A stretch of DNA of 64,000 nucleotides from Pantoea allii (GTDB lineage Bacteria; Pseudomonadota; Gammaproteobacteria; Enterobacterales; Enterobacteriaceae), in the NCBI RefSeq assembly GCF_002307475.1, contig NZ_NTMH01000052.1, forward strand, positions 34,364 through 98,363, read 5' to 3'. This document shows, piece by piece, positions 13,702 through 24,390 of this stretch. The position numbers and the translations under genes were made by a program. Position 1 is the stretch's first letter; every line of letters starts with the position of its first letter. The notes beneath the pieces were generated by a model. It was not told where the DNA came from and made no database searches. It saw only the letters and a list, made by a program, of their open reading frames with translations.

Positions 13702-15054
13702 ATGACCCGACATTATGACTATCTCGCCATCGGCGGCGGCAGCGGCGGTATTGCCTCGATTAACCGTGCAGCAAGCTATGGCCAGAAATGTGCCCTGATA
13801 GAAGCCAAAGCACTGGGCGGAACCTGCGTCAACGTGGGCTGTGTGCCGAAAAAAGTCATGTGGCATGCCGCGCAAATCGCCGAGGCGATTCATCTTTACG
13901 GCCCCGATTATGGTTTTGACACCACGGTAAACCGCTTCGACTGGGGCACGCTGGTCAAAAACCGTAGCGCCTATATCGACCGTATTCACCAATCATACGA
14001 CAATGTGCTGGGGAAAAATAAGGTCGATGTCATCCACGGCTTTGCCCGTTTTATTGATGCGCATACCGTTGAAGTCAATGGCGAAACCATTACGGCCGAC
14101 CATATTTTGATCGCCACCGGTGGACGTCCAGGCCATCCCTCTGTCCCCGGTGCGGAATACGGAATTGATTCAGACGGTTTCTTTGAACTGGACGCGCTGC
14201 CAAAACGCACCGCGGTGATTGGCGCCGGTTATATCGCCGTCGAACTGGCGGGCGTGGTGAACGCACTCGGCTCCGAAACCCATTTATTCGTCCGTAAACA
14301 TGCCCCGCTGCGCAGCTTTGATCCGCTGATCACCGAGACGCTGGTTGAAGTCATGAACGCGGAAGGCCCGACGCTGCACACTCAGGCGACGCCAAAAGCG
14401 GTGGTAAAAAATGCCGACGGCAGTCTGACGTTACAGCTGGAAGATGGCAGCGACTACACCGTCGATTGCCTGGTTTGGGCCATTGGTCGTGTACCGGAAA
14501 CCGACAGCCTGAATATCCAGGCGGCAGGCGTTACGCTGGATGAGAAAGGTTATATCAAGGTCGATAAATTCCAGAACACCAATGTGTCAGGCGTTTATGC
14601 CGTAGGCGATAACACCGGTGCCGTTGAGCTGACCCCGGTGGCCGTGGCAGCAGGTCGTCGCCTGTCTGAGCGTTTGTTTAATAACAAACCGGATGAGCAT
14701 CTGGATTACAGCAACATTCCTACCGTGGTATTCAGCCATCCGCCGATCGGCACCGTGGGCCTGACGGAACCGCAGGCGCGCGAACAGTACGGTGATGATC
14801 AGGTTAAAGTCTACAAGTCGTCCTTTACCGCGATGTACACCGCAGTCACCCAACATCGCCAGCCGTGCCGCATGAAATTAGTCTGCGTCGGCCCGGAGGA
14901 GAAGATTGTCGGTATTCACGGCATTGGTGGTGGAATGGACGAGATGCTGCAGGGCTTTGCGGTGGCGTTGAAAATGGGCGCAACCAAAAAAGACTTCGAT
15001 AACACCGTGGCGATTCACCCGACCGCAGCGGAAGAGTTTGTGACGATGCGTTAA
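13702..15054 (+). CDS. gor: Glutathione reductase
   Basis: A 450-residue cytoplasmic flavoenzyme, the same length as E. coli Gor, that reduces glutathione disulfide with NADPH. The N-terminal [15 protein letters not shown] binds FAD, and [13 protein letters not shown] carries the redox pair C42/C47. [12 protein letters not shown] is the NADPH fold and the C-terminal [10 protein letters not shown] holds the base His-Glu. In E. coli the gene is controlled by OxyR; no clear OxyR site was identified here. It is the last backbone gene before the accessory island. Confidence 0.97.
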
Positions 15055-15090
15055 TGTAGAAAAAACACACCTACATCTTTCACTTATCTG

Positions 15091-15118
15091 AAACTGGCCC
15101 TTATGCGGCCAGTTTTTT
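15091..15118 (+). terminator. Rho-independent terminator of gor
   Basis: AAACTGGCC at 15091-15099, seven-base loop, GGCCAGTTT at 15107-15115, continuing into a run of six T. It ends 64 bases after gor and marks the left edge of the accessory island. Confidence 0.9.
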
Positions 15119-15257
15119 ATGCAATTAAGAATATTTTGATTACGCTCTCCAGTTTTTCATTCGATAGAATATGCTCAGCAATACCGCAGGTTTCTGGGGC
15201 ATACTTATGGGCATAAATAATATTGACCTGCTCCCCGTTGATTAGTACACCCCGATA
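15117..15257 (-). pseudogene. C-terminal open frame of an unidentified gene, remnant
   Basis: On the minus strand a frame opens after a stop at 15258-15260 and runs 46 codons to TAA at 15117-15119. It reads YRGVLINGEQVNIIYAHKYA, then PETCGIAEHILSNEKLESVI and KIFLIA. The composition looks protein-like but there is no start codon with a ribosome-binding site, and the frame ends exactly in the gor terminator T-run. It may be the 3' end of a gene cut by the neighbouring IS110 fragment. I do not recognise it. Confidence 0.3.
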
Positions 15258-15289
15258 TTAGTAATGTCTTCATAAGCCACATGAGGACA

Positions 15290-15545
15290 TCCCCATGACG
15301 AAGCTTTTTTCCAATGAACACATTGCCATCGTTTTTCTGCCAGCGAAGAAATGGCTTAACATACTGGGGACTGATCACTTTTACTTTATGCCCCAGTTTT
15401 TCAAATTCCCTATGCCAGTAAAATGCTCTCGTGCATGCTTCAATGCCAATCAGGTAGGCGGGTATAATGACCAGTTTCTAAAGTAATATTTTTCGCTCAA
15501 CACGTCGGGTATAAACCGGCTTGCCTGCTGGATGAATTATGTTCA
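15290..15545 (-). pseudogene. IS110-family transposase fragment
   Basis: Read on the minus strand this gives PAGKPVYTRRVERKILL, a stop (TAG at 15478-15480), then KLVIIPAYLIGIEACTRAFY and WHREFEKLGHKVKVISPQYV followed by KPFLRWQKNDG. GIEAC...HYW-type, LGHxVxxISPQYVKPF and the QKND aspartate are hallmarks of the N-terminal RuvC-like DEDD domain of IS110/IS1111 transposases. Both ends are missing and one internal stop is present, so it is dead. The plus-strand 63-codon frame over it is an antisense artefact. Confidence 0.75.
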
Positions 15546-15583
15546 GTTAAGCGTAGAGGGAAGTAGTAGTCCATCCCATTACC

Positions 15584-16582
15584 TGGCGCAAGAAGTTTGG
15601 TGGAATGGAAGTGCCTGGGGTGAAGCGTCTAAAGTCGCCTGAAGAGGAGAACGCCCGCCTCATGAAGCTGCTTGCTGAAGCCATGCTTAATAAGGAGGTG
15701 CTTTAGGTGGCTCTCAGGCGAAAGTAATGACAACAGACCAGAAGCGGGAAGCTGTGGTATTGATGTGTTATGCGATCTGTCGCAACTTCGTACCTGCAGG
15801 CTACAGGTTTTTCCCTGTCAACCTGCCGTTATGATGCTCAGCGTCTATCTGCTGATTCACATTTATCAAGGCGTATCACTGAGATGGTGCTTGAGCGCAG
15901 ACGTTTTGGTTACCGGCGCATCTGGCAGCTATTGCGTCGGAATGGCCTTCACGTCAATCACAAACGGGTATACCGCATTTACCACCTTAACGGACTGAGC
16001 GTAAAACACAGACAACGCCTTAAAGGGCTGGCGACCGGACAGTTTCCGCTTCTGCGTCCGGATGCTCCCAACCTGACTTGGTCGATGGATTTCGTTATGG
16101 ACGTACTGGCCAGCGATCGCAGGATCAAGTGCCTGACTTGTGTGGATGATTTCACGAAGGAGTGTCTAACAATTACCGTCGCATTCGGGATATCAGGCGT
16201 ACAAGTTACGTGTATTCTGAACAGTATTGCGCTATTTCGTGGTTATCCGGCCACGATAAGAATCGATCAGGGGCCTGAATTCACCTGCCGCGCGCTTGAT
16301 CAGTAGGCCTTTGAGCATGGCGTGGAACTGCGTCTTATCCAGCCAGGCAAACCGACTCAGAACGGATTTATTGAGAGTTTTAACGGACGATTTAGAGATA
16401 AATGCCTGAACGAGCACAGGTTCAGCAATATTGTTCATGCCAGGAAAACGATTAATGGTTGGTGGCAGGATTATAACGAGTGCCGTCCACATTCATCACT
16501 GAATCACCAAACTCCAGTTGAATTTGCTGCGGACTGGCGAAACGGGAAATATGAAGAAAAACCAACAGAAACTACTAACTGA
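15584..16582 (+). mobile_element. Degenerate IS3-family element (IS51/IS407-like group)
   Basis: Remnant of an insertion sequence with overlapping orfA and orfB. The 3' half of orfA reads WRKKFGGMEVPGVKRLKSPE then EENARLMKLLAEAMLNKEVL, followed by TAG at 15704-15706 in place of a sense codon, then VALRRK and TAA at 15725-15727 overlapping the orfB ATG. The first part of orfA is missing. orfB follows with a frameshift and a stop. Terminal inverted repeats were not found, consistent with decay. Confidence 0.8.
15727..16582 (+). pseudogene. IS3-family transposase OrfB, broken
   Basis: The frame starts MTTDQKREAVVLMC at ATG 15727, shifts near 15780-15800, and continues as FSLSTCRYDAQRL, ERRRFGYRRIWQLLRRNGL and LTWSMDFVMDVL with the first catalytic Asp. 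DQGPEFTCRALDQ holds the second, then TAG at 16304-16306 replaces the usual Trp codon; the same frame goes on as [20 protein letters not shown] and [17 protein letters not shown] with the catalytic Glu, to TAA at 16582. One frameshift and one nonsense codon make the protein inactive. Confidence 0.85.
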
Positions 16583-16661
16583 AAAGTTGTATCTGATTCT
16601 TAGGGCAGGTAACTTAAGCTTTAAATTACCATAAACCTTTATATTTCAACCAGTCACCCTT

Positions 16662-16973
16662 ATGAAGGCGGTTTATCCCCTGAAAACGCTGGGTCATTTG
16701 CGCACTGTGTTAATTGGTTTTCGCAAAGCTAACGGATGGACGCAAAAAGAACTGTCAAAACTGTTGGGGGTAACTCAGCAAACGTATGCTCGCCTTGAAG
16801 CAAATCCCGCGAGCGCCAGCTTTGATCGTTTATTCAAAGTATTTAGCATATAGGGTGTTGAAATTGAAGTATTTTTGCGAGAGCCTTTACCACAGGCGAA
16901 ACCAGAATTAACGACACAACAATATTCATCGTTACCCGCAAGGCAGGAAAATTGTAAGGACCTAAAAATATAA
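16662..16973 (+). pseudogene. XRE-family (HipB-like) regulator interrupted by one stop codon
   Basis: MKAVYPLKTLGHLRTVLIGF starts a frame with a clear helix-turn-helix: RKANGWTQKELSKLLGVTQQ then TYARLEANP. TAG at 16851-16853 stops it after 63 codons, but the same frame goes on at once as GVEIEVFLREPLPQAKPELT and ends at TAA 16971-16973. HipB-like antitoxins read LG(V)EI here, so the TAG most simply comes from a TTG leucine codon. The 63-residue product would keep the whole HTH. No hipA-like partner was found downstream; only short disconnected frames follow. Confidence 0.7.
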
Positions 16974-17706
16974 ATATTGATGATAAAGTTTTTCCTCACC
17001 TATTTAACAGATACGTCATTATCTACATTGGTTTCCTATGCATATCTGCATCAGCTTCATTCTGAATTTCCGCGAGATGCACTAGCATTGACAATGTCTC
17101 GTGAATCAATGTTATTGCAATGAACTGCTTCAGTATTGTCTCTGTGTCTATTTATTTTTTTACATTTAAAAAATAGAGCATATATTCCTTATGACTGAAT
17201 TGAATCGTCGATAAAATAGCAGAGTTTAATTTACCCTCTGGCTTCAAACTGTACCTGCCACTGTTTGCTGATATTCTCTTCACATTCACATGTTTTTGTC
17301 GAAAGTCATGTTGTCAAAACGATCACGCTTTGACCTCATACTGGCTCTACCATAGTCGTTTCTCAGAATCGGCGTTTCATATTATTGTATGTTTTACTTG
17401 AAATTATCGATCCTGATTTTCATCGCATATAAACATTTTCGGAGCAACAGCTGTATCTTGGCTTCGTTCGTAATCTGAATGCGCTGTCAACTTTACTGAG
17501 CAATGAGCTCATCATTCCTGCGATCCCAGACTGCGTACACACTCTCAAACAACCCATTTGTACTGCGCTAATTACGGAGCACTAAATCGACGTCATACAC
17601 TCATATTGACAGGCTAATTAACTTGCCAAAATCATCAAATTTGATAGATTTTTCTTCATTTTTTTGTTAACTTAATTGTAAATAAATCAATGTTAATTTA
17701 TTGTTC
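16974..17706. other. AT-rich non-coding stretch in the island
   Basis: About 730 bases with stops in all frames. A 31-codon open stretch at about 17020-17117 (LVSYAYLHQLHSEFPRDALA, then LTMSRESMLLQ) looks protein-like and may be the tail of a lost gene. The last 100 bases before the recombinase (TTGACAGGCTAATTAACTTG near 17607 and several T-runs) probably carry its promoter. No repeat, tRNA or attachment core was recognised. Confidence 0.4.
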
Positions 17707-18270
17707 ATGAATCAAAAAATTGGCTATTCGAGAGTCTCTTCGATAAACATTAAAACGAGCAGTCAGTGTGAAAGCCTGAAAGCCGCAGGCTGTGATTTGA
17801 TTATCGTAGATGAAGAAAAAGAACCTCAGCCATTCAGTTTATGCCTGGAGATTCTCAAACCCGGAGATGTGCTGGTGGTAACGAGCCTTGAAATGTTGGG
17901 ACGTAACCTTGCCGGTGTACTTAAGGCCATAACGTCCATCAATGAGCGGGGTGCATCCCTGATCAGTCTCAGTGAAGGCCTTGACTCAGCCAGTGAATCA
18001 GGGGAACCGCTGGTAAGAATGTGCCATTTACTTATGGGGTGTCAGCAAGCCTTCGTTCGTGAAAAAAACCAGAAAGGACTTACGGCCAGCAGGGCGAGAG
18101 GCCGTCTTGGTGGGCGAAAAAAGAAATTGAGTCAGAAAGATATTATTCAAATCAAAGAATTATTAAGCCGCCCCGAAAGTAGTGTGAGTGATGTTGCAAA
18201 AAAGTACGGCGTTTCCAGAACGACCATCTACAAATATGTCGGGGTTATCGTTCCAGAACATGCGCTTTAG
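17707..18270 (+). CDS. Serine recombinase (resolvase/invertase family), probably catalytically impaired
   Basis: A 187-residue protein with the resolvase layout: IGYSRVSS at the N-terminus with nucleophile S11, LKPGDVLVV, a long E helix (SLEMLGRNLAGVLKAI), and a C-terminal DNA-binding part after GRLGGRKKKL with the helix-turn-helix VSDVAKKYGVSRTTIYKYVG at about 160-179. Two active-site arginines of the family are not where expected: the usual LDRLGR reads LEMLGR (residues 61-66), so Asp-Arg becomes Glu-Met, and the Arg before the D helix (xRPxL) is absent in EPQPFSL (39-45). R66 is kept. It may bind DNA without recombining it. It lies 66 bases before ietA. Confidence 0.8.
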   Translation: MNQKIGYSRVSSINIKTSSQCESLKAAGCDLIIVDEEKEPQPFSLCLEILKPGDVLVVTSLEMLGRNLAGVLKAITSINERGASLISLSEGLDSASESGEPLVRMCHLLMGCQQAFVREKNQKGLTASRARGRLGGRKKKLSQKDIIQIKELLSRPESSVSDVAKKYGVSRTTIYKYVGVIVPEHAL

Positions 18271-18336
18271 ACCACATTTCATCGTGCATTTAAGAACTAA
18301 TATTTATACTATCAACGCACCAAAGGAGAGTTGATA

Positions 18337-19338
18337 ATGGCAACCGCAGAACAGTTTAAAGCGCTTTTAAAGAGCCACGCTGACGGTGATGAAGCGCGTT
18401 TTTACTCTATTGCTCTCCAAGTAGCAGCTAAAGAAGCACGTCAGGGTCACAGTAAGCTCGCAAATGACATCAAGCAAATCGTTGAAAAATCGCAAAAAAA
18501 TGATGAAAAAATGAGTCATTTGACGACAGCAAAAACGCTTCAATTTGTTCATCAGCCAAAAAGCGAACTTCAGGGCTTGCTTGAACTGACGCCCAGTGAT
18601 GTGCATGTTGAGGAGTTAGTATTATCTGCTGATGTCAAAGAGCGACTGGAGAAAGTCGTTACTGAGCAACGACAGTCAGATAAGTTAAAACGCTTCGGAT
18701 TATTGCCACGGCGTAAACTCCTCTTTACCGGACCACCCGGAACAGGTAAAACGATGTCAGCTCTCATGCTGGCTACTGAACTTCGTTTGCCGCTTTATAC
18801 CATAGTCTTGGATAGCCTTATTACACGTTATATGGGAGAAACTGCGGCAAAATTACGTCTTATCTTTGATCACATAAGACAGACCCGGGCGGTCTATCTG
18901 TTCGATGAATTTGACGCGATTGGCACACAACGTGGTGCATCAAATGATGTGGGCGAAATCAGAAGAGTATTGAATTCCTTTCTGATATTTGTAGAGCAGG
19001 ATTATTCAGAAAGCGTAATCGTTGCAGCAACAAACCACCCGGAACTACTTGACCAGGCTCTTTATCGCCGTTTCGACGATATTATTCAGTTCGAGAGGCC
19101 ACAAGAAGCACAGATTGTCATGTTGATGAAAAATCGACTTTCCTTGTTCGATATTAACCATCTTAACTGGGAAGCAATCATAACAGAGGCTCTGGGCCTG
19201 AGTTCTGCCGAAATTACGCGCTCCTGTGATGATGCTGCAAAAGATGCCGTTATATATTTTGACGGAAAACTTGAAACGTCGGTGATCATCAAAGCCCTCG
19301 CCAGAAGACATAAAGGCGGTGGCGCAAACCGGGAATAA
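18337..19338 (+). CDS. ietA: IetA-like AAA ATPase (antitoxin/regulatory partner of the subtilase)
   Basis: A 333-residue AAA ATPase. Walker A GPPGTGKT is at residues 132-139, Walker B VYLFDEFDAIG with DE at 190-191, sensor-1 VAATNHPELLD, and an RRFDD arginine-finger stretch, preceded by a 120-residue helical N-terminus. The gene directly precedes a subtilisin-like protease gene. That pair is the IetAS architecture: on the Agrobacterium plasmid pTiC58 IetA acts as antitoxin to the protease IetS and stabilises the plasmid, and ietAS pairs have also been reported as anti-phage systems. The ATG at 18337 follows AAAGGAGAG at 18321-18329. Assignment rests on architecture and motifs, not on a database match. 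Confidence 0.8.
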   Translation: MATAEQFKALLKSHADGDEARFYSIALQVAAKEARQGHSKLANDIKQIVEKSQKNDEKMSHLTTAKTLQFVHQPKSELQGLLELTPSDVHVEELVLSADVKERLEKVVTEQRQSDKLKRFGLLPRRKLLFTGPPGTGKTMSALMLATELRLPLYTIVLDSLITRYMGETAAKLRLIFDHIRQTRAVYLFDEFDAIGTQRGASNDVGEIRRVLNSFLIFVEQDYSESVIVAATNHPELLDQALYRRFDDIIQFERPQEAQIVMLMKNRLSLFDINHLNWEAIITEALGLSSAEITRSCDDAAKDAVIYFDGKLETSVIIKALARRHKGGGANRE

Positions 19339-19354
19339 CATAGCAGAGGACATA

Positions 19355-21868
19355 ATGGCAAATGACAGGATGCATTTGAATGTCAGGCAGTTTGTTACGA
19401 GTGAAAGATTTAGGTCAAGAAATACAGCAAGAAGTATTCAAATCGCTCCCCGGGACAGACAAACTCATGGCGAAGGACTGAGGCTGCAATATCAGGAAAT
19501 ATTAGACCGGTATGATGGTATGGCAGCCAATCGGGAAACACCTGTAACAGATGATATTGGTATTTATATTGAGGTCATTGGTCAGGAAAGAATCAAGCTA
19601 CCCCTGGAAAAGCTGGATAATACTGATTTCAAACTTTGCCTTCTTAAGACAGAAGGGCACCGTGAAGTCGCAACCCTATTTATCCCCGAAGCCAGGCGCG
19701 GGGCCTTTCTACGAAAAGTAAATCAGTATTTGGACCCTGACAAAGACCGCTATAAAGAAAGTGAAGATACATATTACCCTGCAAATCATGCTTTGATTGC
19801 AAGTATTGCCGAAGTAAGGTTTGCACGGATTCGTTCTTTCTGGACAGATGAACCAAGCCTTTTCCCTGATGATCCCGAAAGACAGTTTTGGTGGGAGCTT
19901 TGGCTCAAAAAGGAGCAAAACAGCGATCCTCTCCTGATTGGCAGACAGTTAGCAGAAAGACTTAATGCTGAGATGGGAAGCTCTTCTCTAAATTTCTTTA
20001 AATCTGTTGTTCTATTAATCAAATGTTCCCTTAACCAGCTTGAACGCGCTCCTGAACTGATAGCGAATCTCGAAGAGCTCAGGAGAGCAAAAGATACCCC
20101 GTTCCCTATTGTTTACTCTTCCCCTTTCGATCAAGCTCAGTGGGTCGATGATATTTCCCAACGTTTCGTGCCTAATACCGATGCTAATTGCGCAGTTACA
20201 ATACTTGATACTGGGATAAATTATCATCATCGACTTCTGCAACATGTCACTGCAGGCAGCTACTCAGAATGCTGGCTCCCTCAGTGGCCGCACTACTCTA
20301 TTCCGGGCGGCATTGAAGTCCAGCATGGTTCTATGCAGGCAGGTCTGGTTGCCTTTGGCAATCTGCTTGATGTCAGCCAGAGTAGCTCATCTGTACATAC
20401 GCCATTCGTTATCGAATCAGGGAGAATCATCCCTCCTACAGGAATAAATCCTCCTGAGCTCTACGGCGATATTACTGTGAGCACAGCTTACAAACATGAA
20501 ACTGAACGGCCAGAGTATAACCGGGTCTTTAGCCTGGCGATTACTTCACCTGAAAGTTCTGTAAGCGGGATGCCATCTTCCTGGTCTGCAGAAATCGACC
20601 GTTTTACATGTGGTGTTGACGAAGATATCAGTAGGTTATTCGTTATATCCGCTGGTAACAACCGTGATGTAAGACATGACTCAGATTACTGGGATCAGGT
20701 AGCCCTTTCGCCCATCGAAGATCCTGCGCAATCCTGGAATGCGCTTACCGTTGGTGCTTACACAGAGTTGTCTACAATTGATGACCCGGTTTTTGATGGC
20801 TGGACAGCATTTGCGATGCCTGGAGACGTTTCTCCATCAAGCCGATCTTCTGTGAACTGGTCATGGCGAAAACAGGCTCCTCATAAACCTGATGTCGTTG
20901 CCGAGGGTGGAAACCATGTTATTTCTCCCGACAGGACTGCGGTTGATAACTGCTCTGATGTATCTTTGCTTACCACATCGGGAAAAACGACAGGTTCTGC
21001 TTTTGAAAGTCATGGGGACACAAGTTCTGCATGTGCGCTGATATCCAGAGATGCAGCTCTTCTGCGCACACAATACCCTGAGCTATGGCCTGAGACTATT
21101 CGAGGCTTGATCGTTCATTCAGCAGAATGGACACCCCGGATGATGATGCGTTTTGAACAGCTATGCAGACAGCATTCTCCGAGTGTGGCAAAAGATTGCC
21201 TGCTGCGTACTGTAGGCCACGGTGTTCCTGATATTAATCGGGCAAGATACAGCGCTGATCACGCTCTGACATTGATAGCTGAAAGCGAGCTACAGCCGTT
21301 CATCAAAGAGACCAATGCGGCTGCATCGGCTGATCCAAAAAACAACATGATGAATCTGCATCAATTACCATGGCCTGTAGCTGCTTTACAATTACTTCCT
21401 CCGGAAACTCCGGTGAAAATGCGGGTTACGCTTTCATACTTCATCGAACCTAATCCAGGCCGTCGTGGGTATCGGTCAAGATACAGCTACCAGTCTCATG
21501 GGCTGCGATTTACGACCATACGTCCAGGACAGACCCTAGAAAACTTTCGATCAATGGTTAATGGATTGGCGTTAACAGACGATTATACCGGTCCGGAGGG
21601 CGATAATGAGGGATGGTTCCTCGGTACACAATTAAGAACCAGAGGCTCTGTGCACTCTGACCGGTGGAATGGTTCGGTGGCTGAACTTCTCGACATGCAT
21701 ACTATTGCTGTCTTCCCGGTAAGTGGATGGTGGAAGTACCGCTCAGGAGAAGAGCGCTGGAGAAATAAAGTTAAGTATTCTTTATTGATTAGCATTGAAG
21801 TACCTGACGAAACTGTAAATATCTACACTGAAGTTGAAAATGTAGTCGATATCTCGGTCTCTATTTAA
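19355..21868 (+). CDS. ietS: IetS-like subtilisin-family serine protease (toxin/effector)
   Basis: An 837-residue S8-type protease without a signal peptide, so cytoplasmic. The catalytic triad is intact: D285 in ILDTGINYHH, H324 in VQHGSMQAGLVAF, S557 in HGDTSSACAL, with oxyanion Asn435 in ISAGNNRD. An N-terminal domain of about 270 residues precedes the protease, and about 250 residues follow it. The ATG at 19355 has AGAGG upstream; a GTG at 19319 that overlaps ietA is a less likely start. It is 16 bases behind ietA, so both come from one transcript. In the known systems this is the toxic partner restrained by the ATPase. A hairpin follows the stop. Confidence 0.8.
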   Translation: MANDRMHLNVRQFVTSERFRSRNTARSIQIAPRDRQTHGEGLRLQYQEILDRYDGMAANRETPVTDDIGIYIEVIGQERIKLPLEKLDNTDFKLCLLKTEGHREVATLFIPEARRGAFLRKVNQYLDPDKDRYKESEDTYYPANHALIASIAEVRFARIRSFWTDEPSLFPDDPERQFWWELWLKKEQNSDPLLIGRQLAERLNAEMGSSSLNFFKSVVLLIKCSLNQLERAPELIANLEELRRAKDTPFPIVYSSPFDQAQWVDDISQRFVPNTDANCAVTILDTGINYHHRLLQHVTAGSYSECWLPQWPHYSIPGGIEVQHGSMQAGLVAFGNLLDVSQSSSSVHTPFVIESGRIIPPTGINPPELYGDITVSTAYKHETERPEYNRVFSLAITSPESSVSGMPSSWSAEIDRFTCGVDEDISRLFVISAGNNRDVRHDSDYWDQVALSPIEDPAQSWNALTVGAYTELSTIDDPVFDGWTAFAMPGDVSPSSRSSVNWSWRKQAPHKPDVVAEGGNHVISPDRTAVDNCSDVSLLTTSGKTTGSAFESHGDTSSACALISRDAALLRTQYPELWPETIRGLIVHSAEWTPRMMMRFEQLCRQHSPSVAKDCLLRTVGHGVPDINRARYSADHALTLIAESELQPFIKETNAAASADPKNNMMNLHQLPWPVAALQLLPPETPVKMRVTLSYFIEPNPGRRGYRSRYSYQSHGLRFTTIRPGQTLENFRSMVNGLALTDDYTGPEGDNEGWFLGTQLRTRGSVHSDRWNGSVAELLDMHTIAVFPVSGWWKYRSGEERWRNKVKYSLLISIEVPDETVNIYTEVENVVDISVSI

Positions 21869-21876
21869 GATCTGAT

Positions 21877-21902
21877 AAGACTGCGGGTTTTTCCGCAGTC
21901 TT
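21877..21902 (+). terminator. Hairpin terminator after ietS
   Basis: AAGACTGCGG at 21877-21886, loop GTTTTT, CCGCAGTCTT at 21893-21902. The ten-base stem is perfect and starts eight bases after the ietS stop. The T-run is in the loop, not after the stem, so termination may be partial. Confidence 0.65.
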
Positions 21903-21908
21903 GACTAA

Positions 21909-22099
21909 CAGACTCAGCAACACGTGTGGCCTCGCCAGCCACTCTTCCAGCGTCAGCATGCCGTTCTCTGGCATAAAACGCCTGTCAGCGAGGCAGTTAA
22001 ATTGTTCCGGAAAGAGTGTTTATATCTGAATGTCACCCGCCACGCCGGTAAAATGCCCAGCGCCAGATCCACTTCCCCGAGATCAGTCAGGCCAGCATG
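21909..22099 (-). pseudogene. Remnant of a LysR-type regulator, effector-binding domain
   Basis: On the minus strand from 22099 the frame reads HAGLTDLGEVDLALGILP, the typical start of the second LysR substrate-domain strand (GEVDLALG). After frameshifts the sequence continues FPEQFNCLADRRF-like and ends LTLEEWLARPHVLLSL at 21956-21909, again LysR-like (LTLExWLxxPHVLVS). No helix-turn-helix part remains and there are at least two frame changes. The right end is exactly at a 17-base palindrome, which may be the junction where the rest was lost. Confidence 0.55.
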
Positions 22100-22123
22100 A
22101 TCTCTCTGCTGGCCTGACTGATC
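22081..22123. repeat. 17-base perfect palindrome at a gene-remnant edge
   Basis: GATCAGTCAGGCCAGCA at 22081-22097 and its reverse complement at 22107-22123 are separated by nine bases. The left arm is part of the LysR remnant's coding sequence, so the right arm is an inverted copy of it. That points to a rearrangement junction. In the transcript it would form a very stable hairpin, about 85 bases before the next gene. Confidence 0.75.
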
Positions 22124-22206
22124 TAGGAATATAAGATAGCGTCCGGGATTTTCTCGCCGTTATCGCTATCATGTCTGCATACATTCACATCAAACAAGGT
22201 ACTGAA

Positions 22207-23613
22207 ATGACAGTTAATACTAAAGCTACAAAGTTCGCTCCGGATACGCTGTTCTTTGGGCAAAAGCCGCTTTTGAACGATGGGGCAATTCTGGATAAAG
22301 CTAACGAATTATTAGAGGAACTTAAACCTCAGTTTCCTAGGTGTGAAGCCAATACAAAAGTCACTGATACGAAAAATGCGCGGAAGACTGTGAAGGAAAT
22401 GATGAGCTTTGGGATAGGCGAACAACAATATCCTGCGTTTGTTAAGACAGAATCCTATAAGCAGTTAGTGGCATTGGTTGGCGCATTAAACCTGCTCGCC
22501 CCAAAATGGAAACTTCAAATTAAGCCCTACCAGGATGAGCGCGATCTGACACTGGGATTCTATGATTACCTGGATGACAGGTATCACCCCAGTCGGCTCG
22601 CTGGCGAGATTTTAAAAAGCTATTTTTATTGCCTTGGCCAATTTAACGCATCGGCCGCTGTTCGTCTTAGTACAACTGAAAATCATATCATTGAAATCAT
22701 GCGTATGAGACCCCGCGTTAAAGAGGACCTTTTTAGCAAGGATTTTGATTACAAAACTGGAACAGCAGAAGCCCGTGGGTGGTTGAACAGTATCATTGAC
22801 CCCTTGCTCCTCCGTTATCCAGAAACACAGCACGATACGCAGGCAGAAAGTTTAACGCTCGCGTTTCACAGGCACATCAGCAAGAACATGGTGTTAAATG
22901 ATTTCATTAATAGTGGTCATTATCACCAATCGGAAAGTGAGCAGCTCACCGGCGTGATCAATGCTTTCAATCAATGGACTGAAGCAGAAGACCTGTCCGC
23001 AGTGCCGGCAGCGGATGAGGCAGATTTACATATTGCTTTGACTTTTGCGGTCATCCACGCGGTGGATCGCCCCAGTGGTTTCGACTGGCAGTCTCAAATC
23101 CAGAATAATCTTCAGGATAAATACATCAGTCGCTTGCTGAAATTTGTGCGTTACGTTCGGTACGCCAAAAAAGAGCAAAACAAAAAGATTTCCCTGCGAC
23201 TAATACGTCGCGGCAGTACCAACCGAGACCTGATGCTCTACCCGGCTCTGCTCGAACTCAGTGATGAAATCCACGACCCGAATTATCAAGTAATGTGCAG
23301 GAATGCCACTAAATTACTCACTAACATGAAAATCAATGCCGAGCTGACAAAGTTCATGGGCAATATTTTTGGCGCACTATGCTGCTATGAGGGGGATGAA
23401 ACTGACCTCAATATACAGATGTTTTCCTACTGCGAAAACCGCAAAGAATTATGGGATTACCGGACAAACTTTATGCGTAAGCTCCTGCGACTGGATTACG
23501 ACCAGATGGAATCCTTCCTAGATAAACTGGACGCAATCTTGGCACCCGAACGTGACATTCTTCAGTCGAGGCTTAACCAAAAAATTGACCTTTACCAGAG
23601 GGGGTATGTATGA
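22207..23613 (+). CDS. Unknown 468-residue mostly helical protein, first gene of a two-gene operon
   Basis: I do not recognise this protein. It is soluble, has no signal peptide, no membrane segment, and no nucleotide-binding or nuclease motif that I can see. The sequence is rich in predicted helix: an N-terminal acidic part (ILDKANELLEELKPQF), a middle with repeated charged helices (WLNSIIDPLLLRYPETQ; GVINAFNQWTEAEDL), and a basic segment (KFVRYVRYAKKEQNKKISLR; RLIRRGSTNRD) before a Cys-containing helix GNIFGALCCYEGDETD. The ATG at 22207 follows AAGG at a usable distance; ATG 22171 has no ribosome-binding site. Its stop overlaps the next start by four bases. It is beside ietAS in the island, so a defence or plasmid-type role is possible but unproven. 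Confidence 0.75.
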   Translation: MTVNTKATKFAPDTLFFGQKPLLNDGAILDKANELLEELKPQFPRCEANTKVTDTKNARKTVKEMMSFGIGEQQYPAFVKTESYKQLVALVGALNLLAPKWKLQIKPYQDERDLTLGFYDYLDDRYHPSRLAGEILKSYFYCLGQFNASAAVRLSTTENHIIEIMRMRPRVKEDLFSKDFDYKTGTAEARGWLNSIIDPLLLRYPETQHDTQAESLTLAFHRHISKNMVLNDFINSGHYHQSESEQLTGVINAFNQWTEAEDLSAVPAADEADLHIALTFAVIHAVDRPSGFDWQSQIQNNLQDKYISRLLKFVRYVRYAKKEQNKKISLRLIRRGSTNRDLMLYPALLELSDEIHDPNYQVMCRNATKLLTNMKINAELTKFMGNIFGALCCYEGDETDLNIQMFSYCENRKELWDYRTNFMRKLLRLDYDQMESFLDKLDAILAPERDILQSRLNQKIDLYQRGYV

Positions 23614-23945
23614 ATCTTTCAGGAAGCGTGACCATTGAAGTCTGTCACAAAAATGGCGAAGAGGTTGAGGTCTTTGACATTAGTGCCTCTGAGTTCGGCC
23701 TTGAGGAATCAGGAACTCGCAACTATGACGGAGAGCGTGCCTACCGTGGGCTGTACATCTACTTCAACAGTGAGTATGGCTTCGATGTGCTGGCAGAAGC
23801 CGAGGAAATGAACCACTCCATTACTGATTTTGACATCAACCTGCGCCAGCACAGCAGTATGTATGAGATTAATATCGATACGGATAATCTTTACGCAAAC
23901 TCAACAGACGCTGACGTTGAATACAACGAAGACGACTGGCGGTGA
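23610..23945 (+). CDS. Unknown 111-residue acidic protein, second gene of the operon
   Basis: No family recognised. The protein is strongly acidic and looks like alternating beta strands: SGSVTIEVCHKNGEEVEVFD, AYRGLYIYFNSEYGFDVLAE, then ITDFDINLRQHSSMYEINID, ending DADVEYNEDDWR. Start and preceding stop overlap as ATGA, so translation is coupled to the 468-residue partner and the two products probably act together. Small size and high acidity would fit an antitoxin, inhibitor or DNA-mimic type partner of the basic-patch protein before it; this is speculation. A hairpin follows twelve bases after the stop. Confidence 0.7.
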   Translation: MNLSGSVTIEVCHKNGEEVEVFDISASEFGLEESGTRNYDGERAYRGLYIYFNSEYGFDVLAEAEEMNHSITDFDINLRQHSSMYEINIDTDNLYANSTDADVEYNEDDWR

Positions 23946-23957
23946 TCCTGATAGTAA

Positions 23958-23985
23958 ATACCCGGCTAGCGTCATGGCCGGGTAT
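23958..23985 (+). terminator. Hairpin after the unknown two-gene operon
   Basis: ATACCCGGC at 23958-23966 and GCCGGGTAT at 23977-23985, ten-base loop. Placed right after the operon stop, but without a following T-run. Confidence 0.5.
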
Positions 23986-24390
23986 CTGAAAACTTAAGTA
24001 GGATGTCAGTTTCATCAGATGGATTGAAAAAGGTACTTTTTTGTATCGACCCACACTTGTCTTCATGACTCAAGTTCAAAACCTATCGACGACCTACACA
24101 ATTATCGTGAAAGAAGCCTATTGCCCCGAAAAGCTTTATTTTTAGCATATAAACTCTGTCGTTATATGACCTGAATGAGCAATCTGAGATGTTACAATCC
24201 CTTGATACATGACGATGAAAGCCAGCGTAGAGGTGCTTCCATCACTTACATCTGAAAAAATAATTTTTCTGAAAACAATTAAATGGTTATTAATATTTTT
24301 TTATCAATTTTCATAATTTCACGTTTTAAAATTGTATGGGTATTGTGTGAAGATGCGTTAACAGGGCAATCCTGATTCGTTCGCGACTTA
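23986..24390. other. Right end of the accessory island, non-coding
   Basis: About 400 AT-rich bases with stops in every frame. It contains long A/T tracts (24255-24335). Nothing protein-like, no tRNA and no clear attachment-type repeat was seen. The composition changes back to backbone-like at the ROK gene. Confidence 0.4.

Follow-up and report, generated by a model that had tools for sequence, protein, structure and literature searches.

Two orphan genes, which we call A and B, form a real two-gene unit in an accessory island of Pantoea allii, and the copies of the pair in other bacteria show that it is a self-contained mobile module with sharp ends. The association is more than chance, because the two genes remain together in three further settings and purifying selection acts on them. 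From the neighbours and settings of the copies we infer that a role in defence is the likeliest single reading. A-B may be a self-contained mobile two-component cassette of the phage-defence type, acting by abortive infection or as a regulated effector, with an effector/restrainer mechanism; this proposal is tentative, and we stop short of calling it probable. Table 1 gives the features of the window, by which we mean the whole stretch of 64,000 nucleotides that was analysed.

Table 1. Coordinates of the features discussed, in window positions
Feature	Positions	Strand	Remarks
Accessory island	15055..24361		9.3 kb between gor and ROK gene; gor 3' end repeated at right end
Left att-like direct repeat (gor 3' end)	15038..15054	+	
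Right att-like direct repeat	24345..24361	+	15/17 identical; equalled in 0/300 base shuffles
IetA-like AAA ATPase	18331..19338	+	PADLOC IetA 4.6e-75
IetS-like subtilase	19319..21868	+	Pfam Peptidase_S8 2.1e-47; PADLOC IetS 4.9e-23
Conserved box GAATATAAG	22127..22135	+	Three lineages, fixed spacing
TATCAT, -10-like hexamer	22167..22172	+	31 bases after box
Gene A	22207..23613	+	468 aa; orphan family, probably helical
A basic patch, residues 301-340	23107..23226	+	Net charge positive in 5/5 sequences
A most conserved 50-residue block, residues 379-428	23341..23490	+	25 invariant of 50
Gene B	23610..23945	+	111 aa; very acidic orphan family, better conserved than A
Hairpin	23958..23985	+	12 bases after B; 9-bp perfect stem, 10-base loop

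Distribution and lineages

The copies fall into three lineages. The first comprises the window and a Pantoea stewartii contig (L008), whose B proteins are 85% identical; the second, Pantoea sp. alder81 (L009, the same as L002) and Providencia rettgeri (L010); the third, four E. coli records (L004-L007) that are at least 99.65% identical over A-B. Between lineages, identity is 34-43% for A and 56-65% for B. In all seven other loci read, B lies directly behind A or behind a remnant of A.

The pair is rare in every collection searched. Of 99 relatives, counting the window's own genome, three have gene A, one of them with residues 377-468 only. In profile scans of overlapping samples of 394 genomes of the order, 369 of the class, 398 of the phylum and 343 of the family, the window's own genome alone scored; another sample of 293 genomes from the family yielded none, but it contained no genome known to match and is therefore uninformative. 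A-B was found in 3 of 5,426 E. coli genomes and in 3 of 72,556 plasmid records, one of the latter lying outside the E. coli set, so that four E. coli records are known altogether. In contigs from GTDB, a scan with A as the only query detected no locus and one with the B profile detected three; these scans may miss relatives because they are based on short exact patterns. No credible match to A or B was found among 50,697 phage records, and two profile scans of IMG/VR gave no match. A Streptococcus phage match of the Providencia A (E 0.04, 65 residues) fell on a short ORF after an excisionase and was set down to chance, and a Sphingobium phage sigma-factor match of B (E 0.5) was dismissed in the same way.

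The pair moves as a unit

The copies whose surroundings can be read lie on plasmids, in a conjugative element, near phage tail genes and in a chromosomal stretch with plasmid-type genes; the P. stewartii contig, too short to place, is outside this tally. Three of the E. coli records are plasmids, L004 (typed as conjugative), L005 and L006; the fourth, L007, is a chromosome with RepB and an integrase nearby. The L009 pair sits among the conjugation genes TraD, TraC and TIGR03749. In L010, umuC lies on one side of the pair and a 477-bp duplicate of its 3' end on the other, and beyond umuDC come tail genes (lambda-type), a TipJ-like one among them; the two copies of the duplicated segment (L010 3623-4099 and 10624-11097, 92%) flank A-B and are perhaps an insertion scar. 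A variable, accessory or mobile location is what these A-B copies have in common. The earlier note had asked whether the homologues might prove to be mostly core or housekeeping genes, and they are not: neither protein matches a family, and no readable copy has a core setting.

The clearest evidence of transfer comes from the second lineage. A single stretch of 2.0 kb (L009 8429-10426 and L010 8430-10426; 1,999 alignment columns, 94% identical) is common to the two loci and consists of about 170 bp before A, then A, B and the hairpin. The only other match between these 20.3-kb loci is a 29-bp inverted one within that hairpin. Because the 2.0-kb stretch is shared by DNA that is otherwise unrelated, we conclude that the pair moved as a unit.

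In some copies A is damaged and B is intact. L008 retains only the last 88 residues of A, at a contig start that we take to resemble an IS903-type end, and L004 and L006, two of the four E. coli records, share the loss of one base in an A run of gene A (nucleotide 957). This frameshift could reflect phase variation, decay or sequencing error. The survival of B where A is broken or cut off fits the idea that A is the costly part; it is also unremarkable, because A is four times longer and a bigger target.

Gene structure and conserved upstream element

Both reading frames lie where the earlier note had placed them, with the lengths it gave, and in the window a shared ATGA holds the stop codon of A and the start codon of B. 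This overlap, which the note had read as translational coupling, occurs in four of the six junctions read; in the other two a gap of 10-11 nt separates the genes. An alternative in-frame ATG at 22171 would give a 480-aa version of A; in the E. coli copy the frame opened at the equivalent ATG hits a stop ahead of A. We prefer 22207 as the start, because ATG 22171 sits inside the conserved TATCATG and the E. coli frame stops.

The pattern GAATATAAG-N31-TATMATG precedes A in the window, L009, L010 and L005, which represent three diverged lineages. Within the 150-bp upstream stretches, no 9-mer but the box is shared by the three lineages, and any common 9-mer at all arose in 1 of 3000 dinucleotide-shuffle sets. 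In a search of the window's genome and 59 others, the complete pattern turned up a single time, in the window's genome; in IMG/VR it matches at least 120 stretches, which from the size of that collection we judge to be chance level. We read the element as a putative -10 box with an activator site: a promoter scan called no consensus sigma-70 promoter there, and the lack of a recognised -35 box suggests that an activator may read GAATATAAG. Just ahead of the element, at 22080-22124, two 18-bp arms form a perfect inverted repeat around a 9-base loop; in the stretches before A in L009 and L005 no inverted repeat of 8 bp or more was found.

A hairpin follows B at a distance of 12 bases in the window, 17 in L009 and 137 in L005. 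The window hairpin is a possible terminator, lacking a T run, and a terminator scan did not call it.

Family searches

Neither protein has a recognisable family, in agreement with the earlier note's statement that known motifs are absent: searches of Pfam, PADLOC, PHROGs and NCBIfam gave nothing above chance level. A and B matched zero families in Pfam and PADLOC-DB 2.0.0 (2023) at E up to 10, the PADLOC scan of B using the window sequence alone and a copy of the database that dates from 2023. Five members of A, taken one by one, also matched no PADLOC family, and the member-by-member scans as a whole, with Pfam run on both proteins, PADLOC on A and NCBIfam on B, had a best E of 0.026. Profile scans, Pfam and NCBIfam included, matched neither protein to a known toxin or antitoxin family.

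The candidates that did appear were rejected as chance-level. For A these were a PHROG tail family (E 0.018), an NCBIfam model (E 0.25) and GH113 (E 0.07, in one of five members). For B they were a 54-position PHROG (E 0.016), four Pfam families (best E 0.026, each in one or two of six members) and one NCBIfam model (E 0.07, in one of six). Profiles run against PDB sequences gave none for A and two for B, at E 0.62 and 1.2. Six identifiers belonging to the homologues, namely protein accessions plus a single locus tag, appear in none of the papers searched, and description under other names is possible.

Protein features and selection

B contains 26 D/E and 6 K/R residues in the window copy (pI 4.05), a net charge per residue of -0.18; of the 54 mechanical ORFs of at least 150 aa in the window, none falls below -0.045. 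The small, very acidic partner described in the earlier note recurs in all six sequences computed (pI 4.05-4.32).

The basic patch of A is likewise borne out, with a net charge of +11 in the window, +4 in L009 and L010, and +9 in L005 and L007; a +11 stretch is reached by 3 of the 54 window ORFs of at least 150 aa, A among them. Charge complementarity of the two whole proteins does not hold as a rule. The pI of whole A is 6.40 in the window and runs from 5.84 to 9.01 in the copies, so A is not consistently basic and complementarity is not conserved at the level of the whole proteins. The best conserved block of A contains 25 of the 117 invariant positions, a concentration equalled in 10 of 2000 shuffles.

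B is better conserved than A (Fisher p 3.4e-5, 8.8e-5 and 2.6e-5 for three pairs; the sites are not independent and the values are guides only). B is under purifying selection. By the NG86 method, dN/dS between L009 and L010 is 0.27 for A and 0.24 for B, and for B it is 0.19 between the window and L008 and 0.15 between the window and L005 (dS 1.67). YN00 gives higher values for L009/L010 than NG86, 0.37 for A and 0.63 for B. All these figures are restricted to closer pairs, dS being incomputable for more distant ones.

AlphaFold2 models had a mean pLDDT of 38.8 for A (three sequences) and 45.4 for B (four sequences), and at these values they yield no more than mostly helix for A and mostly strand for B. 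A is thus probably helical, as the earlier note had it, although that description rests on a model of such low mean pLDDT, and B is probably beta-rich. Foldseek searches of these low-pLDDT models against the PDB gave no match at E 0.001 for either protein.

The island and its defence-type neighbours

The island looks like a site-specific integration at the gor 3' end. In at least 5 of 22 same-genus genomes searched (G010, G011, G015, G019 and G053) the end of gor and the ROK region are 54-77 bases apart, and the empty-site junctions were read in two of them. No integrase for insertion at the gor site was recognised.

An accessory island beside a defence-type pair was the setting proposed at the outset, and this 9.3-kb insertion with its IetAS-like genes is such a place. 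The further claim that the neighbours decay is true of part of the island: an IS1222-like element and the HipB-like and LysR-like fragments, both judged by eye, are decayed, but the frames of IetA, IetS and a serine resolvase upstream of A-B are open. The broken element, of IS3 type (15697-16550), carries the IS1222 frameshift element (Rfam, 99.3 bits), and one other Rfam match, to MEG8_1, was below threshold. The HipB-like helix-turn-helix fragment (16660-16870) has no recognised partner. Elsewhere in the window, the segment 35001-37000 has an AT skew of 0.27, at the top of the composition table, within a GC-rich stretch.

The IetA and IetS frames overlap. Their matches in PADLOC are significant and their NCBIfam scores (IteA 209.3 bits, IteS 52.8 bits) are far below the cut-offs, so this is a distant IetAS pair. 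Its linkage to A-B is not the rule: in tblastn searches, the window's IetA and IetS were absent from all seven other loci (L004-L010, 8.5-30.5 kb each), and the same test found A and B in all seven, with A partial in L008. IetAS accompanies the window copy only.

A second defence-type neighbour was found in L009. At L009:6477-7397, about 1.2 kb before A and separated from it by one 116-aa ORF, lies a gene that matches PADLOC PDC-S32 (3.9e-49) and Pfam AbiJ_NTD4 (37.7 bits against a cut-off of 34). It was the only defence gene among ten chosen neighbours scanned, four in L009, five in L010 and one in L005; for L004, L006 and L007 the assessment was based on annotation, and for the remaining neighbours on annotation or ORF list. 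In L010 we did not count as defence a methyltransferase with a mad2 match (5.9e-18) over its methyltransferase-like part, or a small helix-turn-helix protein with HTH_VI and RmrA matches. In the survey of neighbourhoods that the earlier note had suggested, the window and L009 have a defence-type neighbour, and none was found among the neighbours scanned in L010 and L005. The presence of two different neighbours of this type is suggestive. Defence genes are common on mobile DNA, however, and so few settings are known that the two may be coincidence.

Proposed function and alternatives

The absence of a family and the mobile settings give partial support to the candidate of the earlier note, a novel defence or toxin-antitoxin module, but constant linkage with IetAS, whole-protein charge complementarity and the ATGA overlap do not hold as a rule. 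In the defence cassette that we propose, A would be the effector, contacting nucleic acid through its basic patch, and the conserved C-terminal block may be its active or partner-binding part. B, perhaps a mimic of nucleic acid, would bind A and block its activity until infection displaced or altered B; the promoter would be switched on by an activator reading GAATATAAG. Several observations stand against this reading: in the PADLOC scans neither protein is homologous to any known defence protein, B is better conserved than A, unlike what is expected of a fast-evolving antitoxin, whole A is not consistently basic, and the YN00 values of dN/dS are higher. In its most specific form the proposal is of a new anti-phage system, made of two families without described relatives, a helical effector directed at nucleic acid and an acidic, mimic-like sensor, under an activator-dependent GAATATAAG promoter; that whole combination we regard as rather unlikely.

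An addiction-type toxin-antitoxin pair, with A the toxin and B the antitoxin, would stabilise its element and have no anti-phage role. The type II layout of close or overlapping genes on one strand is present in A-B, as a matter of gene layout only, and the small acidic partner, the residence on plasmids and a conjugative element, and the loci in which B outlasts A all agree with such a pair. Yet neither protein matches a toxin or antitoxin family, B is the more conserved of the two, and its survival alone is also expected by chance. A toxin-first order with a toxin of 468 aa is unusual, which also counts against it. We think this alternative unlikely.

The pair might instead be ordinary accessory cargo, with a regulatory, envelope or metabolic role for example, travelling on mobile DNA. 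Acquired DNA carries many orphan genes. Against this are the two defence neighbours, and the constant pairing, the conserved upstream element and the transfer of just the A-B unit argue for one selected function; cargo of this kind seems to us quite unlikely. An element-serving function (counter-defence, or help in transfer or lysogeny), with B an acidic mimic directed at a host enzyme and A a helper, agrees with the small, strongly acidic, highly conserved B and with repeated residence on mobile elements, but the near absence from plasmid records and the lack of credible phage or IMG/VR matches, together with a window copy that shares a chromosomal island with IetAS, make it improbable.

Should the cassette give protection from phage, it would represent a defence system of two undescribed families, 2.0 kb long and clonable whole; its natural limits are marked by the stretch that passed between a conjugative element of Pantoea and the chromosome of Providencia. 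If it is a toxin-antitoxin pair, it would contain a new toxin family.

Comparison with known systems

Among the closest known systems, IetAS is the neighbour in the window: it too is a two-gene cassette, lies in the same accessory island and ends 338 bases before A. It consists of an AAA ATPase and a subtilase, however, and A and B match neither. The PDC-S32/AbiJ_NTD4 gene is a defence candidate in the same conjugative element as the L009 pair, but A and B do not match those models.

Toxin-antitoxin and gop-beta modules resemble A-B in being mobile two-gene cassettes with a small partner. In the gop-beta case, a passage of one report describes gop as toxic without beta (PMC9122126). A-B differs from such modules in its large first protein and in having no family match, and neutralisation of A by B is only proposed. 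The acidic character of B has its own parallels. Nucleic-acid mimics such as Ocr, ArdA and similar proteins are small and strongly acidic, and B is both; it differs from them in matching no family, and mimicry is for B a proposal only.
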